This document shows positions 48,230 through 56,981 of a stretch of 64,000 nt of DNA, one piece after another (position 1 is the stretch's first letter; each line of letters starts with the position of its first letter). Made by a program: the position numbers and the translations under genes. Source of the DNA: Acidobacteriaceae bacterium. GTDB taxonomy: Bacteria; Acidobacteriota; Terriglobia; Terriglobales; Acidobacteriaceae. The stretch covers positions 23,406 to 87,405 of the forward strand of contig PLGG01000058.1 of the NCBI GenBank assembly GCA_003138515.1, given 5' to 3'. The notes under the pieces were generated by a model that saw only the letters and a list, made by a program, of their open reading frames with translations, did not search any database and was not told the DNA's origin.

Positions 48230-48766
48230 TTATGGGTGCAGCAGCCACATCATCAGCCACACTATCAGCACCACGGGGATGGCGAAAACCAAGCCAAGAA
48301 CCGCGGCCAGGATCAGGAGAAAGGCCCAATCGCGCCAAGTATGCCGCCGCGGTTCGCCGAGGTGACGCGTGAGCAGGCGATAATTGCGGCGGTTGGCCTT
48401 CCACGCGATATCAAAGGCGTCGCCCAGGATCGGAATCGTGCCGACAAGCACGCCGATGGCGAGGTTCGCCGCCATGCGGACCAGCGTGACGTAAGGGACG
48501 CCGCGAATCCACGCAGCGAGCGGAATCACCAGCGAGGCCAGCCCCGCCAGTACGTCGCCGACGCCGGGAACCAGGCCGATGATCGCATCCAGGCCAAAGC
48601 GGACCTGAGTTCCGGGAACGCGAAAGGCCTCATCGAGCAGAATCTCAAGCTTGCGCAGCGTCTCGTCGCGGAAGATCCACGCGCCGCGATTCCAGCGGTC
48701 TGAAGCGGCCGCGCTTTGCTGCGGAGCGGCGTTTGCGTAGGGCGCATCTGGTTCGCGCTGCGGCAC
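48230..48766 (-). CDS. DUF4112-like membrane protein
   Basis: LLDEAFRVPGTQVRFGLDAIIGLVPGVGDVLAGLASLVIPLAAWIRGVPYVTLVRMAANLAIGVLVGTIPILGDAFDIAWKANRRNYRLL. Confidence 0.85.
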   Translation of the reverse strand: MPQREPDAPYANAAPQQSAAASDRWNRGAWIFRDETLRKLEILLDEAFRVPGTQVRFGLDAIIGLVPGVGDVLAGLASLVIPLAAWIRGVPYVTLVRMAANLAIGVLVGTIPILGDAFDIAWKANRRNYRLLTRHLGEPRRHTWRDWAFLLILAAVLGLVFAIPVVLIVWLMMWLLHP

Positions 48767-48828
48767 TTTCGCTCCCCTCCGGCCGGTCTTTCGAGATCTG
48801 TTTAGATGCTACAATCGAAAGGGTAGAC

Positions 48829-48904
48829 GGCGGCTATAGTTCAGCGGCAGAACGCCTGACTGTGGCTCAGGATGTCGTGGGTTCGATCCCCACTAGCCGC
48901 CCCA
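48829..48904 (+). tRNA. tRNA-His (anticodon GTG), CCA encoded
   Basis: GGCGGCTATAGTTCAGCGGCAGAACGCCTGACTGTGGCTCAGGATGTCGTGGGTTCGATCCCCACTAGCCGCCCCA; consistent with extra 5' G(-1):C73 pair then CCA. Confidence 0.95.
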
Positions 48905-48990
48905 AAGTAAAATCAATAAATTAGGGGATTCACTCCTCTACAGCGTGCAATCAGTGCCAGAATCGTTCCCAACTTTAAAGGGGAACATAC

Positions 48991-49185
48991 ATGGCGCTGC
49001 AGCTCTACCGCCGCCACCGCAAGGAGTGCAAAGCCGGGCATCCGGAGGACTCCAAAAGCGGACAATTCGAGGAGGGCCGCTTCCGCTACGCTCCAGCGCC
49101 CCTCCTCCCCCGAAAACCCTGCTCTCAGCCCTCTACTGGCTCCCTTTTGCTCCGCCACAGCGGTCTACTTTTACTCCGCCCTTGA
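48991..49185 (+). pseudogene. Probable truncated/decayed tyrosine-type integrase N-terminus
   Basis: MALQLYRRHRKECKAGHPEDSKSGQFEEGR resembles the N-terminus of phage-type integrases I recall from Acidobacteria; similarity lost afterwards; lies 86 bp past tRNA-His in the same orientation. Confidence 0.55.
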
Positions 49186-50124
49186 CAACGATCAGAACGA
49201 GGCTGCTGGTGCTGGCGAGAGGATACGCGTTCCTGGCTGGAGATCAGGCCGACATTTCCGGCTCTTGAATCCGATGATTGTGATGGTGCTGACGCATTTG
49301 GATTTCGTTACCTTTTGACAATGGCATTCATCATGTTCGGAGCGGACAGATCTATTCCGTCCTGAGCTGCCGGATGGTGCCTCATCGCAACTGAGTTTAC
49401 TGCGCTACCTGTACCGAAGTTTGGGCCACGCCACAGCCTAACGATTTCCGAAAGCATGTTTTTCTGTACTCATTTGTCCCCTGGGGTCGAATTGGTCGAA
49501 CGCATCGCGGAGTTCTTTTTCTTTCGCAACCGGGTTCCAAGAACTGTTCTGGCTTGGCGATCCTCTGGGTACAAGAAAGTGTGCATTACGCGCCCCAGCG
49601 TCGAAGCACCGTCTATTTGTACCTTGGGCACATATGGGCCTTCGAGGCCGAGAACTTCTTTGGTGGAAAGCGAAGTGCTTGATTTGACGCGTGCGGGCCG
49701 GCTCACGATGAGTCCGGATACTGTTCGGGGGGGGCGGATGTGAGTCACCGCGGCGTTTTCCATTACTGATCAGCTTTTAGGAGATAAGTCATTGTCGACG
49801 TGTGCATTGGCGCCACATGAGAGTCGCGCGCACACCTGTTCGATTTTTCAGAAGATGATTAACCGCTTTGCGAATCGAATTGCTTTGTTCGTGTTACTGT
49901 AGGCCCGCTGCTTCAGCCTTAGAGGCGGCGATTCTCTCTGGAAAACCGAAGGCGATCTCCACCTTTGGATGGATGCTCGAGAAGGTCTCGGCCACGTAGG
50001 ATGCTTGCAGAAGCACCAAGGTTCGTTCCGGTGCGACTGACCGTGGCTGTGTCTGTCGTCCCAGGTGAGCCAATCAGTCTTAGCATCAAATGCGGATACC
50101 TCCTCCCCTTGAAGGTGACCCACT

Positions 50125-50697
50125 ATGCCTCACATTGCACTACTAGAAGGATTACCCGGAATTCGTGGAGCCCTGGCTTTCCGTCCAGAGACGGCAAAAC
50201 CTTTGAATGAGCTTGTGGAAGTCTTGATGCGTGGCCCGCATACGCTTTCGCCCGGGGAGCGCGAGCTGATTGCCACTTATGTTTCCGCGCTCAATGAATG
50301 CTATTACTGCCAGACCATTCATGGAGCAATCGCCGCAGCGCATCTGAACGGCGACGAGGACTTGGTGAAGCGAGTCAAGGCCGACTTCCAGCAAGCCGAC
50401 ATATCGGGCAAATTGAAAGCTCTGTTGGTGATCGCCGCCAAGGTGCAAAAGGGCGGCAAGAATGTGACCGGGGAAGACATCTCCCATGCGCGCAGCAAAG
50501 GCGCGACCGATCTTGAAATTCACGATACGGTCCTGATCGCGGCGGCGTTCTGCATGTTCAACCGCTATGTAGATGGCCTGGGTACAACGCAGCCGCGCGA
50601 TGAAGCCCTGTACCGGGAACGCGGCAAGCAAGTGGCTCGCGAAGGATACATTGCAGTGAGCAAAACGTATATGCCCGCCAAAGCCGCGGCTCGTTGA
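50125..50697 (+). CDS. Carboxymuconolactone decarboxylase/AhpD-like peroxidase-related protein (copy 1)
   Basis: LSPGERELIATYVSALNECYYCQTIHGAIAA with AhpD-type CXXC...H motif; FCMFNRYVDGLGT. Confidence 0.85.
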   Translation: MPHIALLEGLPGIRGALAFRPETAKPLNELVEVLMRGPHTLSPGERELIATYVSALNECYYCQTIHGAIAAAHLNGDEDLVKRVKADFQQADISGKLKALLVIAAKVQKGGKNVTGEDISHARSKGATDLEIHDTVLIAAAFCMFNRYVDGLGTTQPRDEALYRERGKQVAREGYIAVSKTYMPAKAAAR

Positions 50698-50707
50698 AGG
50701 GAACCAC

Positions 50708-51247
50708 ATGGCGCACATCGCACTTCCTGAAGGGAATCCCGGCATCAGCGGCGGATTCGCGTTTCGTCCGGAGACGGCCACGCCCATGCGTGAATTGGCG
50801 GACATCCTGCTTTACCAACCGGGCAGCCTCTCACCGGGCGAGCGGGAGCTGATCGCGACCTATGTCTCTTCCCAAAACGACTGCTACTTCTGCCAGACCA
50901 GCCATGGTGCGGCGGCGGCCGCGTACTTAGGCGGCGATGCAGTGGTGAAGCAGGTGAAAGCGGATTTCCAAACCGCGTCCGTAACCCCCAAGCTCAAAGC
51001 ATTGCTTACCATCGCAGGCAAGGTGCAGCGCGGCGGAAAAAACGTGACCGGTGAAGATGTGGCCCATGCCCGCAATCTGGGCGCAACCGACGTCGAGATT
51101 CATGACACCGTGCTGATTGCCGCGGCTTTCTGCATGTACAACCGCTACGTGGATGGCCTGGGAACTTGGCAGCCTCACGACCAGACGATGTATGCCGAGA
51201 TGGGCAAGCATCTGGTTGAGCACGGCTATCTTAGGCCTTCCCGTTGA
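50708..51247 (+). CDS. Carboxymuconolactone decarboxylase/AhpD-like peroxidase-related protein (copy 2)
   Basis: LSPGERELIATYVSSQNDCYFCQTSHGAAAA; FCMYNRYVDGLGTWQP; close paralog of preceding gene. Confidence 0.85.
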   Translation: MAHIALPEGNPGISGGFAFRPETATPMRELADILLYQPGSLSPGERELIATYVSSQNDCYFCQTSHGAAAAAYLGGDAVVKQVKADFQTASVTPKLKALLTIAGKVQRGGKNVTGEDVAHARNLGATDVEIHDTVLIAAAFCMYNRYVDGLGTWQPHDQTMYAEMGKHLVEHGYLRPSR

Positions 51248-52584
51248 AGTGGCGTAACTGGAGCAGACGTTCCTTGAATCGTTCCGATCCGGCGCAAGCT
51301 TATCCCGAGGAGAGCCTGTTTTATCCGGGCTGGCGTGTGGTTCTAGTCTGCCAGCTTGGTGTATTAAGCGGTGTTGCCACCATTTTCTTCACCATCTTCA
51401 CTTTGTTTATAAAGCCGTGGCAGCATGATTTTGGATGGAGCCGGGAACAGATTTCGCAGTCGTTCAGCCTGGCCGCTATTTCGGTTGCCATCTGCTCTCC
51501 TTTCATGGGCAGGCTTTTCGATCGCTTCGAGCCGCGAAGACTCATCACCGGAATGATGGTGGCCTTCGGACTGGGACTCGCTTCGCTGGCCGGACTTACT
51601 CCGCATCTTGGGCGGCTCTGTCTCACCACAGTCTTTATCGGCATCGCCGGAACAGGGACTTACCAACTGGGTTACGCTCGCATCGTAGCCAGTTGGTTTG
51701 AGCGCCGGCTGGGCACGGCGCTTTCGGTCGTAGTGGCGGGATCAGGCCTGGGCTCGCTCTTCTTTCCGCCGCTGGTGCAGCATTCCATCACCGTCTATGG
51801 ATGGCGGCACACTTATCTGATCCTTGCTGCACTGCCGCTATTCATCGGTGCACCGCTCACATTTTTCTTCGCGCCATCGTTGCGCGTCCCATCCATCCCA
51901 AAGCCTGCCGACGCCGAACCCAATGCCGCAACTGGGCTCGGCTGGCGGCGGGCGCTCGCCACCCGCAGCTTCTGGCTGATCGCTTTAGGCGTGTGCTCGA
52001 TGTCGCTCGCCGAAAACGGCGCGCTCGTGCACCTCGCGCCGATGCTGAGCGACCGCGGTCTGAGGCTTGAAGACGCTGCGCTCATCGTTTCCGTTCTCGG
52101 CGCCGCAAGCGTGGCGGGACGCTTGTTGCTCGGTTGGATACTGGACTTTTCGGAAGGCTCGTATATTGCCGCAGGGTCGCTTTTGCTGGCGGGCGCCGGG
52201 CTTTTCCTTCTGAGCCGCAGCCAGTCCTTTCACTCGGCTGTAGCCGCTGCAACCATTGCCGGACTGGGCTTGGGTTGCGAGTTCGACCTGATGCCGTATA
52301 TGCTCAAGCGCTATTTCGGCATCCGCTCATTTGCAACCCTGTACGGCCTTGTTTACACCGTCTACGCCGCGGCCGGAGCCGTCGCTCCGCTGATCTTAGG
52401 TCACATCTACGACGTTACAGGGTCGTACATTTGGATCATGTCGATCTTCTCCGGGTTCACAGCGGCTGCGGGCTTGTGCATGTTGACGTTGCCGGCCTAC
52501 CGTTATGCCGGCTTCGCGCCCCTGTCTTCAAATTCCCGTTCTTCCTTAGAGCCAGCAGCAGAGGCAGCTATTGAAAGCATCTAA
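51244..52584 (+). CDS. Major facilitator superfamily transporter (oxalate:formate antiporter-like/MCT-like)
   Basis: ~12 hydrophobic segments; WQHDFGWSREQISQSFSLAAISVAICSPFMGRLFDRFEPRRLITGMM; start codon uncertain (TTG 51244). Confidence 0.87.
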   Translation: MKWRNWSRRSLNRSDPAQAYPEESLFYPGWRVVLVCQLGVLSGVATIFFTIFTLFIKPWQHDFGWSREQISQSFSLAAISVAICSPFMGRLFDRFEPRRLITGMMVAFGLGLASLAGLTPHLGRLCLTTVFIGIAGTGTYQLGYARIVASWFERRLGTALSVVVAGSGLGSLFFPPLVQHSITVYGWRHTYLILAALPLFIGAPLTFFFAPSLRVPSIPKPADAEPNAATGLGWRRALATRSFWLIALGVCSMSLAENGALVHLAPMLSDRGLRLEDAALIVSVLGAASVAGRLLLGWILDFSEGSYIAAGSLLLAGAGLFLLSRSQSFHSAVAAATIAGLGLGCEFDLMPYMLKRYFGIRSFATLYGLVYTVYAAAGAVAPLILGHIYDVTGSYIWIMSIFSGFTAAAGLCMLTLPAYRYAGFAPLSSNSRSSLEPAAEAAIESI

Positions 52585-53128
52585 TCTGCCAGCGTAAGGT
52601 CGGTTGTTGCTAAATCGCCTAGGCGCGAAATGAGCGCGCTTAGGTTTCGAAGTGTCTGCTACTTTTCGCTGATCACAGCAACTGCCGTTGCCCGTTGATG
52701 TTGTTCTGTATGCGAAGGTATAGGTTTTGGAACGGCTCTTTTCGTCCAAAATTACCTTTCGTTTTCAGTGAGATAGATGGCACAATTTGCGAGGGCTTTG
52801 CAAGCGGAATTGGTAGCTATTCCAGGGTCTTGGCCGTTTCAAAAGGCTATGGCGGCCGATCGATTTTCACCACCCCTTTTGAAACATGACCTCTGAGGAT
52901 GCTGCCAGAGCTTGAATTCCGGGAGTATCACCGGCTACCGCGCCAGTCCTCGACCCGACCGGCCAGTGTTTACATATCCAATCCACCTGGACGTAAAACC
53001 GGCTACCGAGAGAAGTGAATTCCCAGGCTAAGCACCGGTTCAAAACCATGTGGACGCGTAGCCGACTATTCGCCCATGTGGAATGCGCTTCCTCGATGAG
53101 TGATTAGGCGATAAATCATCAATTGACC

Positions 53129-54316
53129 CTAGTTGGCGGCAATCACCACCAGAGTTGCGTCGTCCTGGAAATGGTCTCCGCAGAAACTCGAAACACGAGC
53201 GATCAATCGGTTATTCAGTTCGCCAGCTGAGCGGATGAAGTTCGTTCGTGCAAACTCCGCAACGTTTGCTTCACCAAACTCCTGCTCGTCCGCGTCGGAT
53301 GCTTCCGTGATTCCATCCGTGAAGAGGAATAAGCGGTCTCCCGGCCGCAAGTCGACCGTCGCATCCTCATAGGTCCACGAGGGAAAGACGCCCAGGACAG
53401 CGCCACCCTCTTCGAGCATCCGGGTCTGGCCACGAGAGGAGAGGACCGGGCAAGGATTTCCGGCATTGCAAGATTGCAGGGTCCGTGCACTGCCATCGAG
53501 CACCCCATAGAAGAAGGTGACGAACTTCCCGACGGCAATGTTTTCATAAAGCAGTGCGTTTACCTTCCCGCATAGCCATGCCGCGCTCTCCGATTCACTC
53601 GCAAAGGCGTGAACGGCAGCCTGCACGTTCGCCATCAACAGTGCAGCCGAGACTCCTTTGCCAACAACATCTGCTACGCAAATGCCCAGTTTATTTCTGC
53701 CCAGCTTGAAGACGTCATAGTAGTCGCCGCTGACCGCGCGAGCCGGACGCCATATTCCCGCAACCTCGAATCCAGGCAGTTGCGGAATCTCCTTGGGCAG
53801 AAGCGATTGCTGTATCTCCCGCGCGCGTTGCAGTTCCTGCTCCTGCATTTCAAGCTGCGCTGTACCGAGATCCACCGAGCGCTGCAGTTCGGTATTACGC
53901 CGCTCAAGCTTCTCCTTTGTGGTCTGGTAAAGAAAAAACAGCACGCCCGCAACAAATGTGACCAGTACTGGAAATTTCCAGCCTGTTCTGAGCAGATGCT
54001 CCAAAGTTTGTGGCGTCGGTGGCGCAAAAATCCAAACGACCACCGACGACACGACGTAAACCGGTATCAGGAGAACGAGCAGGATCGCGAGAAAGAACAA
54101 CCAATTGTAAGGAAATGGCTTTTCAGAATAGTACCGGCGCAACCTCTGCGTTACAGGCACCACAGTATTTCCAATCGCAATCGAATAGACCAAGACGGTG
54201 AGCGGATTGATCTGCTGTCCAATGGCCCAGAAGACGGCTCCCGCGATTGCAGAGATCGCGAGGTAAACGGCTTGCTGTCTAAGGAAACGTACAAGAGAAG
54301 ACGGTGTTACCCACAT
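53129..54316 (-). CDS. Membrane-anchored SpoIIE/PP2C-type serine phosphatase
   Basis: N-terminal TM helices, coiled coil, then AGIWRPARAVSGDYYDVFKLGRNKLGICVADVVGKGVSAALLMANVQAAVHAF ... PGDRLFLFTDGITEASDADEQEFGE ... DDATLVVIAAN. Confidence 0.9.
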   Translation of the reverse strand: MWVTPSSLVRFLRQQAVYLAISAIAGAVFWAIGQQINPLTVLVYSIAIGNTVVPVTQRLRRYYSEKPFPYNWLFFLAILLVLLIPVYVVSSVVVWIFAPPTPQTLEHLLRTGWKFPVLVTFVAGVLFFLYQTTKEKLERRNTELQRSVDLGTAQLEMQEQELQRAREIQQSLLPKEIPQLPGFEVAGIWRPARAVSGDYYDVFKLGRNKLGICVADVVGKGVSAALLMANVQAAVHAFASESESAAWLCGKVNALLYENIAVGKFVTFFYGVLDGSARTLQSCNAGNPCPVLSSRGQTRMLEEGGAVLGVFPSWTYEDATVDLRPGDRLFLFTDGITEASDADEQEFGEANVAEFARTNFIRSAGELNNRLIARVSSFCGDHFQDDATLVVIAAN

Positions 54317-54328
54317 GTCGACACGCTT

Positions 54329-55063
54329 TCAAAACCTTGCGGAGGTTGACGAACTCGTTTCCAGGCTCTGCACGGCAACATATCCAAAGCAGAATAGGAG
54401 GACAGCAAACCCCAGCGGGTCTAGGATCTCGGGCGGACTCGGGAGCCTCAGTGGAAGCGACAAGTTGCCGTAAACCGCCTCCAAAGCGAATACAAGGATG
54501 CCTAGAGAAAGGACAGTGCGATTGGGCAGGATGAGGAATCTTCGACTGAGCTTTGGCACAGCCACGACAATTGCCATCGCCGTGATCGAAATTGCTGCAA
54601 GCAGATGGTTGTAAGGCATGATTTTGAACGAAGAGCCGGTGAACAGGAAAAGGGCAATGCCTATCACAGCAATCGCGAGACCCGCCAAAATCGCTCCTTG
54701 AAGGAAGAGTCGTAGTTTGTCCCGGCTTAGGTCGAGAAAGGCCAGCAAAGCAATCACCACGACCGAGAACGACAAAACATTGCCGACGTATGGAAGGCTG
54801 GCCAAAAGCCAATGCGGCAAAAGTCCGAGGTCAGCCAACGAACCAAACAGGTATTCGGTTCCTTCAATCGCACTCCAGATTCCAAGCCAGGTGAAGAATG
54901 TCCCCCCGCTCCGGCGCCGCATCACGGCGATGCCGCAGACGCACAACCCGATAAACAGAAAAACCGTACCAAACAGGATGTATGGGATTCGATCGCGAAG
55001 TACCTCAGCAGCTTGATCTGGCAGGGCCACACCTCCACAGACCGTATTAGCCTGTGCCCACAT
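54329..55063 (-). CDS. Hypothetical multi-pass membrane protein
   Basis: Seven or so hydrophobic segments; ends 12 bp before the start of the SpoIIE-type gene on the same strand. Confidence 0.65.
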   Translation of the reverse strand: MWAQANTVCGGVALPDQAAEVLRDRIPYILFGTVFLFIGLCVCGIAVMRRRSGGTFFTWLGIWSAIEGTEYLFGSLADLGLLPHWLLASLPYVGNVLSFSVVVIALLAFLDLSRDKLRLFLQGAILAGLAIAVIGIALFLFTGSSFKIMPYNHLLAAISITAMAIVVAVPKLSRRFLILPNRTVLSLGILVFALEAVYGNLSLPLRLPSPPEILDPLGFAVLLFCFGYVAVQSLETSSSTSARF

Positions 55064-55470
55064 TCGCTGTCAGTGTGCAGCGTCACGGTGTTGGAGATGC
55101 CTTGCCATGATCATCGGTTGATGACAACAGGCCAACGCACTCATTGAGCCATTCCAGTCGATCAGCGTTCTCGGCAACTGGCCGTAAAACCGGCTTCTCG
55201 GACAAGCGCCCCAGAAAACCTGTTGTGAAGCTCGCTGCCACCGGCAGTGAAGGACAAGGGAGAATATCGCCACTGCACGGCCGATCAGAATCTGAGCACA
55301 AACTCGGGCTAGCGAAATCGGAAGCAATAAGGCGCCACGCCAGCCAGTAAGTTCGGCAACCGCTTGTCCGGCACACTCTCTGCACACTAGGCAATGCACT
55401 AGCTCAGGGAATCCGGAATCAATAACACCAGGTTCGCTGATGCCGGATCAGCATATTGGGGTTTGAATTC

Positions 55471-55494
55471 CGGAGAGGGAGGGATTCGAACTCC
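55471..55494 (-). other. tRNA-Ser-like 3'-end fragment (scar)
   Basis: Reverse complement ggagTTCGAATCCCTCCCTCTCCG matches the T-arm/acceptor 3' half typical of tRNA-Ser; no cloverleaf remains. Confidence 0.5.
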
Positions 55495-55781
55495 AGAATG
55501 ACTCAAACATAATGCGAGAGAACCACTCGCGACATTGCAATCTTCACGAATCTCTAGAGATATACTGTGACGAATAGCTGCCCGACGCCGACGCCACCAT
55601 TGGTCTGCAATTGACTCGGTCAAATCGAACCCCGAAAAGGGGAATTGAAAACTCAATTGCTGCTGAGAACTTTCGGGGCCCAGCGTGCAATAGCGTGCAA
55701 TGGTCGTCTGCAACTGTGGCATTTACGGCAACTGTGGTAACCTAGATTCTGTAAGTTACAGACGGCAAAGGGGGTTTTAAC

Positions 55782-55806
55782 GTTCGATCCCAGCTAGCCG
55801 CCCCAA
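55782..55806 (+). other. Partial copy of tRNA-His 3' end (putative attachment-site scar)
   Basis: gttcgatcccagctagccgccccaa versus tRNA-His 48881-48905 gttcgatccccactagccgccccaa: 23/25 identical. Confidence 0.75.
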
Positions 55807-55868
55807 TAGTCCCCCCGAAAAAGCCAAATCGTGGTCATGGTCCGTCGTTCGCATTCAGGGGGTAATCC

Positions 55869-56981
55869 TTGGTAACGCAAGCCGACACGCTGGTTCAGGC
55901 ACAAGCGGCGCGTCCAGCCTGGCTTACTTCGTTTGAGCCTCATCCTTGGCTCGCGAACGGTCATCTCCAAACCATCGTCGGCAATTTTCTCCCTCGCCCT
56001 GCCTTTGATTTACCCGATGTGGAGGAAACCGTGGAAGTCGACCCAGCGGATGGAAGCCGCGTCCTCTGCCACTGCCATTGGCAGCCTGAAACGGTGCGGG
56101 CCGCGAGGCTGACGGCCATCCTTGTACACGGGCTCAACGGTTCCTCCAACTCGCGCTACATTTGTGGCATCGCGCAGCGAGCCTGGGACGCGGGCATGAA
56201 CGTCGTCCGCATGAACATGCGCAATTGCGGCGGCACCGATGCGCTTTCGCCTACGCTCTTTCACTCCGGCCGCTCCGCCGATGTGGGCGCGGTGGTTCGC
56301 CACTTCACCCAGCGTTTCGGCCTCGAGCGCGTGGCGCTGGTTGGCTACTCCATGGGCGGCAACATGGTGCTCAAACTGGCCGGCGAGTGGGGCGCGCGTC
56401 CACCGCTCGTTGCAGTGGCCACGGTCTGTTCGGTCATCGATCTCGCCGCCTGCTCCAATGCTCTGCACGCGCCCTCCAACTTCATCTATGAACGTCATTT
56501 TCTGCATGCACTGATGCAGCGCTTCCGCCACAAAGCTGAGCTCTTTCCCGCCATCTATCAAACCGGCGGCATCGGCCCCGTCCGCTCCATCCGCGAATTC
56601 GACCAAAAAATCGTCGCCCCCAACTGCGGCTTCCGCGATGCAGACGACTACTATTACCGCGCCGCCAGTGCGCGTGTCATCGACCGCATTACGATTCCCG
56701 CGCTTGTCCTCCTCGCGCAAGACGATCCGTTCATCCGTCTCACTCCCGAAACTCGCGAGCTTGTCCTCGCCAATCCCCATATCGACTTCATTGAGCCGCG
56801 CCACGGCGGCCACTGCGCATTCCTCAGCCGCCGAATCGGGAATGGTGCCCAAACCAAGGATGGTGCCCGTACCGGCAATGGTGTCCGCACCGGGGATGGT
56901 ATCCACTGGGCCGAAGCCATGGTTGTCCGCTACCTTCAGGCTGTCAATGATGGCAACCATCCGCACGGCCGCGCCGCCTGA
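55869..56981 (+). CDS. Alpha/beta hydrolase, YheT-like
   Basis: FEPHPWLANGHLQTIVGNFLPR, ILVHGLNGSSNSRYICGIAQRAWDAGMNVVRMNMRNCGGTDALSPTLFHSG, LVGYSMGGNMVLKLAGEWG; TTG start. Confidence 0.88.
   Translation: MVTQADTLVQAQAARPAWLTSFEPHPWLANGHLQTIVGNFLPRPAFDLPDVEETVEVDPADGSRVLCHCHWQPETVRAARLTAILVHGLNGSSNSRYICGIAQRAWDAGMNVVRMNMRNCGGTDALSPTLFHSGRSADVGAVVRHFTQRFGLERVALVGYSMGGNMVLKLAGEWGARPPLVAVATVCSVIDLAACSNALHAPSNFIYERHFLHALMQRFRHKAELFPAIYQTGGIGPVRSIREFDQKIVAPNCGFRDADDYYYRAASARVIDRITIPALVLLAQDDPFIRLTPETRELVLANPHIDFIEPRHGGHCAFLSRRIGNGAQTKDGARTGNGVRTGDGIHWAEAMVVRYLQAVNDGNHPHGRAA

Follow-up and report, generated by a model that had tools for sequence, protein, structure and literature searches.

How did the DNA that separates a tRNA-His gene from an alpha/beta hydrolase gene come to lie in this Acidobacteriaceae genome? 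The window analyzed here, a stretch of 64,000 nucleotides, belongs to contig 29 of a 4.23-Mb genome in 90 contigs. A sequence-only reading had described a decayed genomic island bounded by tRNA-His and a partial copy of its 3' end, a description supported by an empty site, the repeat and an integrase stump. We consider it very probable that positions 48906-55781 represent the decayed remains of an integrative element, most likely of the mobilizable type (integrative mobilizable element, IME), which entered the tRNA-His 3' end by tyrosine-integrase recombination. The features of the locus are listed in Table 1.

Table 1. Features of the tRNA-His island and its borders (window positions).
Feature	Position	Strand	Basis	Remarks
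tRNA-His(GTG), target gene	48830..48904	+	ARAGORN	3' end is the left att core copy (attL)
Left copy of 25-nt direct repeat	48881..48905	+	Repeat search	Core of attL; GTTCGATCCCCACTAGCCGCCCCAA
Inner arm, integrase-side end	48906..48990	+		Probable arm-type repeat CAGCGTGCAAT at 48941-48951
Tyrosine integrase gene stump	48991..49079	+	Sequence match	MALQLYRRHRKECKAGHPEDSKSGQFEEGR; broken at IS21 remnant
Terminal 119 bp of IS21-family insertion sequence	49069..49187	+	91% to G003:C27	Downstream of istB
AhpD-like CMD-family protein 1	50125..50697	+	Pfam PF02627, NCBIfam TIGR01926	Cargo
AhpD-like CMD-family protein 2	50708..51247	+	Pfam PF02627, NCBIfam TIGR01926	Cargo
MFS transporter	51244..52584	+	Pfam	Cargo; follows AhpD pair in other genera too
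Membrane-anchored SpoIIE-type (PP2C) phosphatase	53129..54316	-	Pfam PF07228	Cargo
244-aa membrane-like protein	54329..55063	-		Cargo; without Pfam family
27-nt tRNA-Ser 3'-end fragment	55471..55497	-	Sequence match	20-nt exact core
Inner arm, distal end	55680..55781	+		Two tandem probable arm-type repeats AGCGTGCAAT at 55682 and 55692
Right copy of direct repeat	55782..55806	+	Repeat search, alignment	Core of attR; 2 mismatches
Ancestral right flank	55807..56981	+		Alpha/beta hydrolase gene 55869-56981; directly after tRNA-His in empty-site relatives

The direct repeat consists of the last 24 bases of tRNA-His plus one further base, and foreign sequence begins immediately 3' of the tRNA gene. 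The proposed match between the two copies at 23 of 25 positions is real: no match arose in any of 100 dinucleotide-shuffled versions of the window, and no third site with up to 3 mismatches occurs in the window itself.

To the left of tRNA-His lies a DUF4112 gene (48230-48766). This gene and the hydrolase gene were searched for in 60 related genomes. In the two nearest sampled relatives by hydrolase identity, G006 (80%) and G013 (83%), the hydrolase gene follows tRNA-His directly, at distances of 62 bp and 328 bp, respectively. The predicted empty site, with 48904 joined to approximately 55806, is thus found in close relatives. When window positions 48701-48905 were joined to 55807-56100 and compared with G006, a single 463-bp alignment (81%, 2 gaps) was obtained, passing unbroken through the intact tRNA-His of G006 and the junction. 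Judged from this alignment, the distal 25-mer is the displaced original tRNA-His 3' end and not a second tRNA. That it might be an unrelated degenerate tRNA, as the sequence-only reading had cautioned, was checked and ruled out, as its flank is the flank of the intact tRNA-His in both relatives. In G013 (L104, 9674-10000), the site is otherwise empty, with about 260 additional bp separating tRNA-His from the hydrolase gene.

Site occupancy was surveyed in the 43 loci nearest by hydrolase, 42 of which were classifiable and one unjudgeable. About half of the classifiable loci (19/42) have an empty site. In 2 of the 43 loci, a single contig contains an insert together with both of its ends, and 7 lack a nearby tRNA while retaining a degenerate version of its end, with 1-6 mismatches over 24 positions, a level of similarity seen in none of 1560 control stretches. 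The remaining 14 loci show neither a nearby tRNA nor a recognizable repeat copy and may reflect rearrangements as well as insertions, indicating that the site also varies for other reasons.

Further evidence comes from elements with the same ends. Locus L131 (PLZC01000160.1, Acidobacteriaceae MAG palsa_352) carries a 7.3-kb insert at the same tRNA-His. Its left end is 85.5% identical to window positions 48802-49080 over 282 bp, tRNA included, and its right end is 84% identical to positions 55680-55806 over 127 bp. Genome G032 shares the distal end as well (78% over 127 bp, core included), and the ends of the island also recur, in part, in an element of genome G002. The L131 element and the window island are alike in target tRNA, in both ends and in the integrase N-terminus, but differ in cargo, that of L131 comprising HipA and HTH genes and others. 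Likewise, whole-insert BLAST comparisons with other occupied tRNA-His sites revealed common ends only, with no cargo shared. Elsewhere, the inserts between tRNA-His and the hydrolase gene measure approximately 5.9 kb in G002 (L052), 13 kb in G005 (L053) and 15.7 kb in G007 (L054); by eye, the insert in G002 contains ammonium-transporter-like, PII-like and two-component genes.

These comparisons bear on the possibility that the segment is ancestral chromosomal DNA lost in relatives, the repeat being a chance match or a stray tRNA fragment. The 14 loci without nearby tRNA or recognizable repeat copy would be in line with such a history. However, the segment from 48.9 to 55.8 kb, whose ancestral presence in close relatives was checked, is absent from G006 and G013; the empty arrangement is a common one, seen even in relatives with 49-56% protein identity; and the repeat, like both element ends, is also encountered elsewhere, with zero chance matches. 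Empty sites and shared ends refute the ancestral segment, which we rejected as exceedingly improbable.

The left end of the island retains the start of an integrase gene. In agreement with the integrase-like N-terminal fragment noted previously, an ATG at 48991, 86 bp after tRNA-His, opens a frame whose first 28 codons match a 409-aa integrase (PF00589) of G002 (71%, E 1.8e-7) and which reads like the L131 integrase up to FEEGR. The adjoining IS21-family remnant, whose first bases overlap the integrase match, corresponds to the sequence just after an istB gene (PF01695) in G003. Several genomes of the genus have related IS21 ends, the majority of which terminate at an identical base; on this comparison, the integrase is broken at the point where an IS21-family element ends. 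The remaining parts of the IS21 element and the rest of the integrase gene are absent from the island and, as the opposite end of the IS21 element is missing, a deletion is likely. The integrase of L131 is also out of frame, but not through IS21, and that of L124 is an N-terminal piece only, so that integrase decay is common at the tRNA-His site. In G003 (L213, C27, 2295-3463), IS21 again accompanies a broken integrase: a truncated tyrosine integrase (SAM-like domain) near a tRNA-Pro gene directly abuts an IS21-family end.

Both inner arms carry a short repeat. The 10-bp sequence AGCGTGCAAT has a single copy about 37 bp inward of the left core and two tandem copies about 80-100 bp inward of the right core, a layout nearly identical in distance from the core in the window and L131. 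The G002 element has two near-identical copies of this sequence at each side. A word shared by left and right arms arose in 2 of 1000 shuffles, which is modest taken alone, yet the word recurs in sister elements; the same test alone was not significant for L124, G032 and G007. Given established knowledge of lambda-type integrases, the AGCGTGCAAT repeats are probable arm-type sites, to which the integrase would probably have bound. In L124, L179 and G014, repeats of the GGGCCAAT type were seen by eye at similar places, which suggests that the repeats at both element ends change together.

A fuller relative, in G002, is inserted in tRNA-Ser(GGA), with the tRNA followed by arm repeats and then by the 409-aa integrase; a similar right arm, located about 18 kb away, precedes a copy of the tRNA-Ser end. 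Between the two ends, close to the integrase, is a 933-aa protein with TrwC relaxase (MobF) and helicase domains. A PADLOC search of this relative returned only helicase-domain cross matches to the relaxase. The combination of tyrosine integrase, TrwC/MobF relaxase and matching ends is that of MobF IMEs, and the element family therefore probably moves as integrative mobilizable elements, presumably mobilized by a relaxase, which is seen only in the G002 relative. The window island shares the tyrosine integrase, as a stump, and matching ends, but unlike MobF IMEs has no remaining relaxase. Neither a relaxase nor a phage gene was found in the island, and a search of the window gave no TrwC match; the IME assignment is therefore based on the relationship of the ends and integrase stump to those of relatives.

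A decayed prophage or phage satellite would likewise account for a tyrosine integrase at a tRNA end, as phages use these too, and the PF00589 model itself bears the name Phage_integrase. This origin is nevertheless very unlikely: no phage structural gene is present in the window interval, the searched L131 proteins or the G002 relative, the last of which instead has a TrwC relaxase beside its integrase. On these grounds the prophage reading was rejected in favor of a decayed IME.

We further examined what the island contains. The accessory cargo listed in the sequence-only reading was largely borne out by Pfam, which recognizes the two AhpD-like proteins, the MFS transporter and the SpoIIE-type phosphatase, leaving the 244-aa membrane-like protein without a family. 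NCBIfam TIGR01926 labels the AhpD-like pair peroxidase-related, and the transporter is nearest to lactate/monocarboxylate carriers, below their NCBIfam cut-off. For the second AhpD-like protein, the best matches (83%, then 79%) come from other Acidobacteriaceae genera, and those from its own genus do not exceed 77%. Several of these other genera have the AhpD-AhpD-MFS trio in contiguous order, with the same MFS gene at 66-72%; among sampled genus members the MFS gene has one counterpart at 59%, the remainder being at or below 43%. The trio is an operon also present in other genera of the family. The 244-aa protein has weak relatives only, within the genus. As a whole, the cargo pattern fits horizontal arrival. 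Large poorly coding gaps had also been reported and were recovered, as a Pfam search of all six frames gave no match above noise at approximately 49.2-50.1, 52.6-53.1 and 55.1-55.7 kb. The suggested composition check gave a GC content of 55.4% for the island interval, compared with 60.3% in the remainder of the window, and only 1 of 115 equal-sized windows was as low.

The tRNA-Ser fragment near the distal end complicates a single insertion. Its 20-nt core is exact to both tRNA-Ser(CGA) on contig C11 and tRNA-Ser(TGA) on contig C36 of the same genome, and the fragment is a possible second attachment-site remnant. Because it lies inside the island, more than one event is suggested, and the interval may be composite. 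At least two insertions would then have followed one another at one spot, a tRNA-His element being joined by a tRNA-Ser-type element or by other accretions; the outermost repeats alone would survive, and the cargo may belong to any insertion. That one integrase family uses tRNA-His and tRNA-Ser in relatives, and that the compared occupied sites are unlike in content, are consistent with this history; on the other hand, a corresponding left end for a tRNA-Ser element was not found inside the interval, and the fragment could be carried baggage. A composite origin is a serious but less probable alternative, and a decayed tRNA-His element is retained as the working interpretation below.

According to this interpretation, an integrative element would have entered the tRNA-His 3' end through tyrosine-integrase recombination, its own copy of the tRNA end restoring the gene and the original end being displaced to its present distal position. 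An IS21-family insertion sequence would subsequently have entered the integrase gene after about codon 28, immobilizing the element, and a deletion would then have removed the rest of the integrase gene and of IS21. The AhpD-AhpD-MFS operon, the SpoIIE-type phosphatase and the membrane protein are the survivors, illustrating how passenger genes become fixed once the integrase is destroyed.

tRNA-targeting islands typically measure about 10 kb or more, smaller ones being termed islets, and at 6.9 kb the present island is small. In line with the general features of tRNA-targeting genomic islands with tyrosine integrases (reviewed in PMC2704930), it combines insertion at a tRNA 3' end, an imperfect direct repeat, an integrase (here a stump) beside the tRNA, atypical GC content, sporadic distribution and empty sites. 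It differs in the 6.9 kb left, the stump integrase and a 25-nt repeat with 2 mismatches. In Candidatus Solibacter usitatus Ellin6076, candidate islands are described that resemble it in tRNA genes, integrases, low GC content and degraded genes; in the part of that account considered here, these are composition-predicted and come without reported att sites or empty sites (PMC3174227). A literature search, with subscription journals largely outside its coverage, gave no direct match for tRNA-His islands in Acidobacteria.

The window island thus illustrates a known kind well, that of decayed tRNA-targeting islands, and probably comes from an IME family. As the empty site is still seen in close relatives, the event is real but of an ordinary kind and leaves general concepts unchanged, wider interest being confined to a possibly undescribed element family. 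Whether the island belongs, as a decayed representative, to an acidobacterial MobF-type mobilizable family that is apparently undescribed is, in our estimation, an evenly balanced question. Such a family would be marked by one att geometry, in which tandem 10-bp arm repeats lie at comparable distances from the core, by target switching between tRNA-His and tRNA-Ser, and by an arm repeat of AGCGTGCAAT or GGGCCAAT type co-changing at both ends. The locus documents a recurrent tRNA-His integration site in a large, poorly cultured group of soil bacteria, for which empty sites, sister elements and a fuller relative suggesting the mode of movement are all at hand.

Finally, in the genome of the window itself, another element of this sort is suggested by the sequence after tRNA-Ser(CGA) (L100, G000:C11, 1524-1787; TATATTTAGAATCAATAATTTACG), which is similar to the left inner arm seen in tRNA-His elements from G028 and G021; the contig stops about 260 bp further on.
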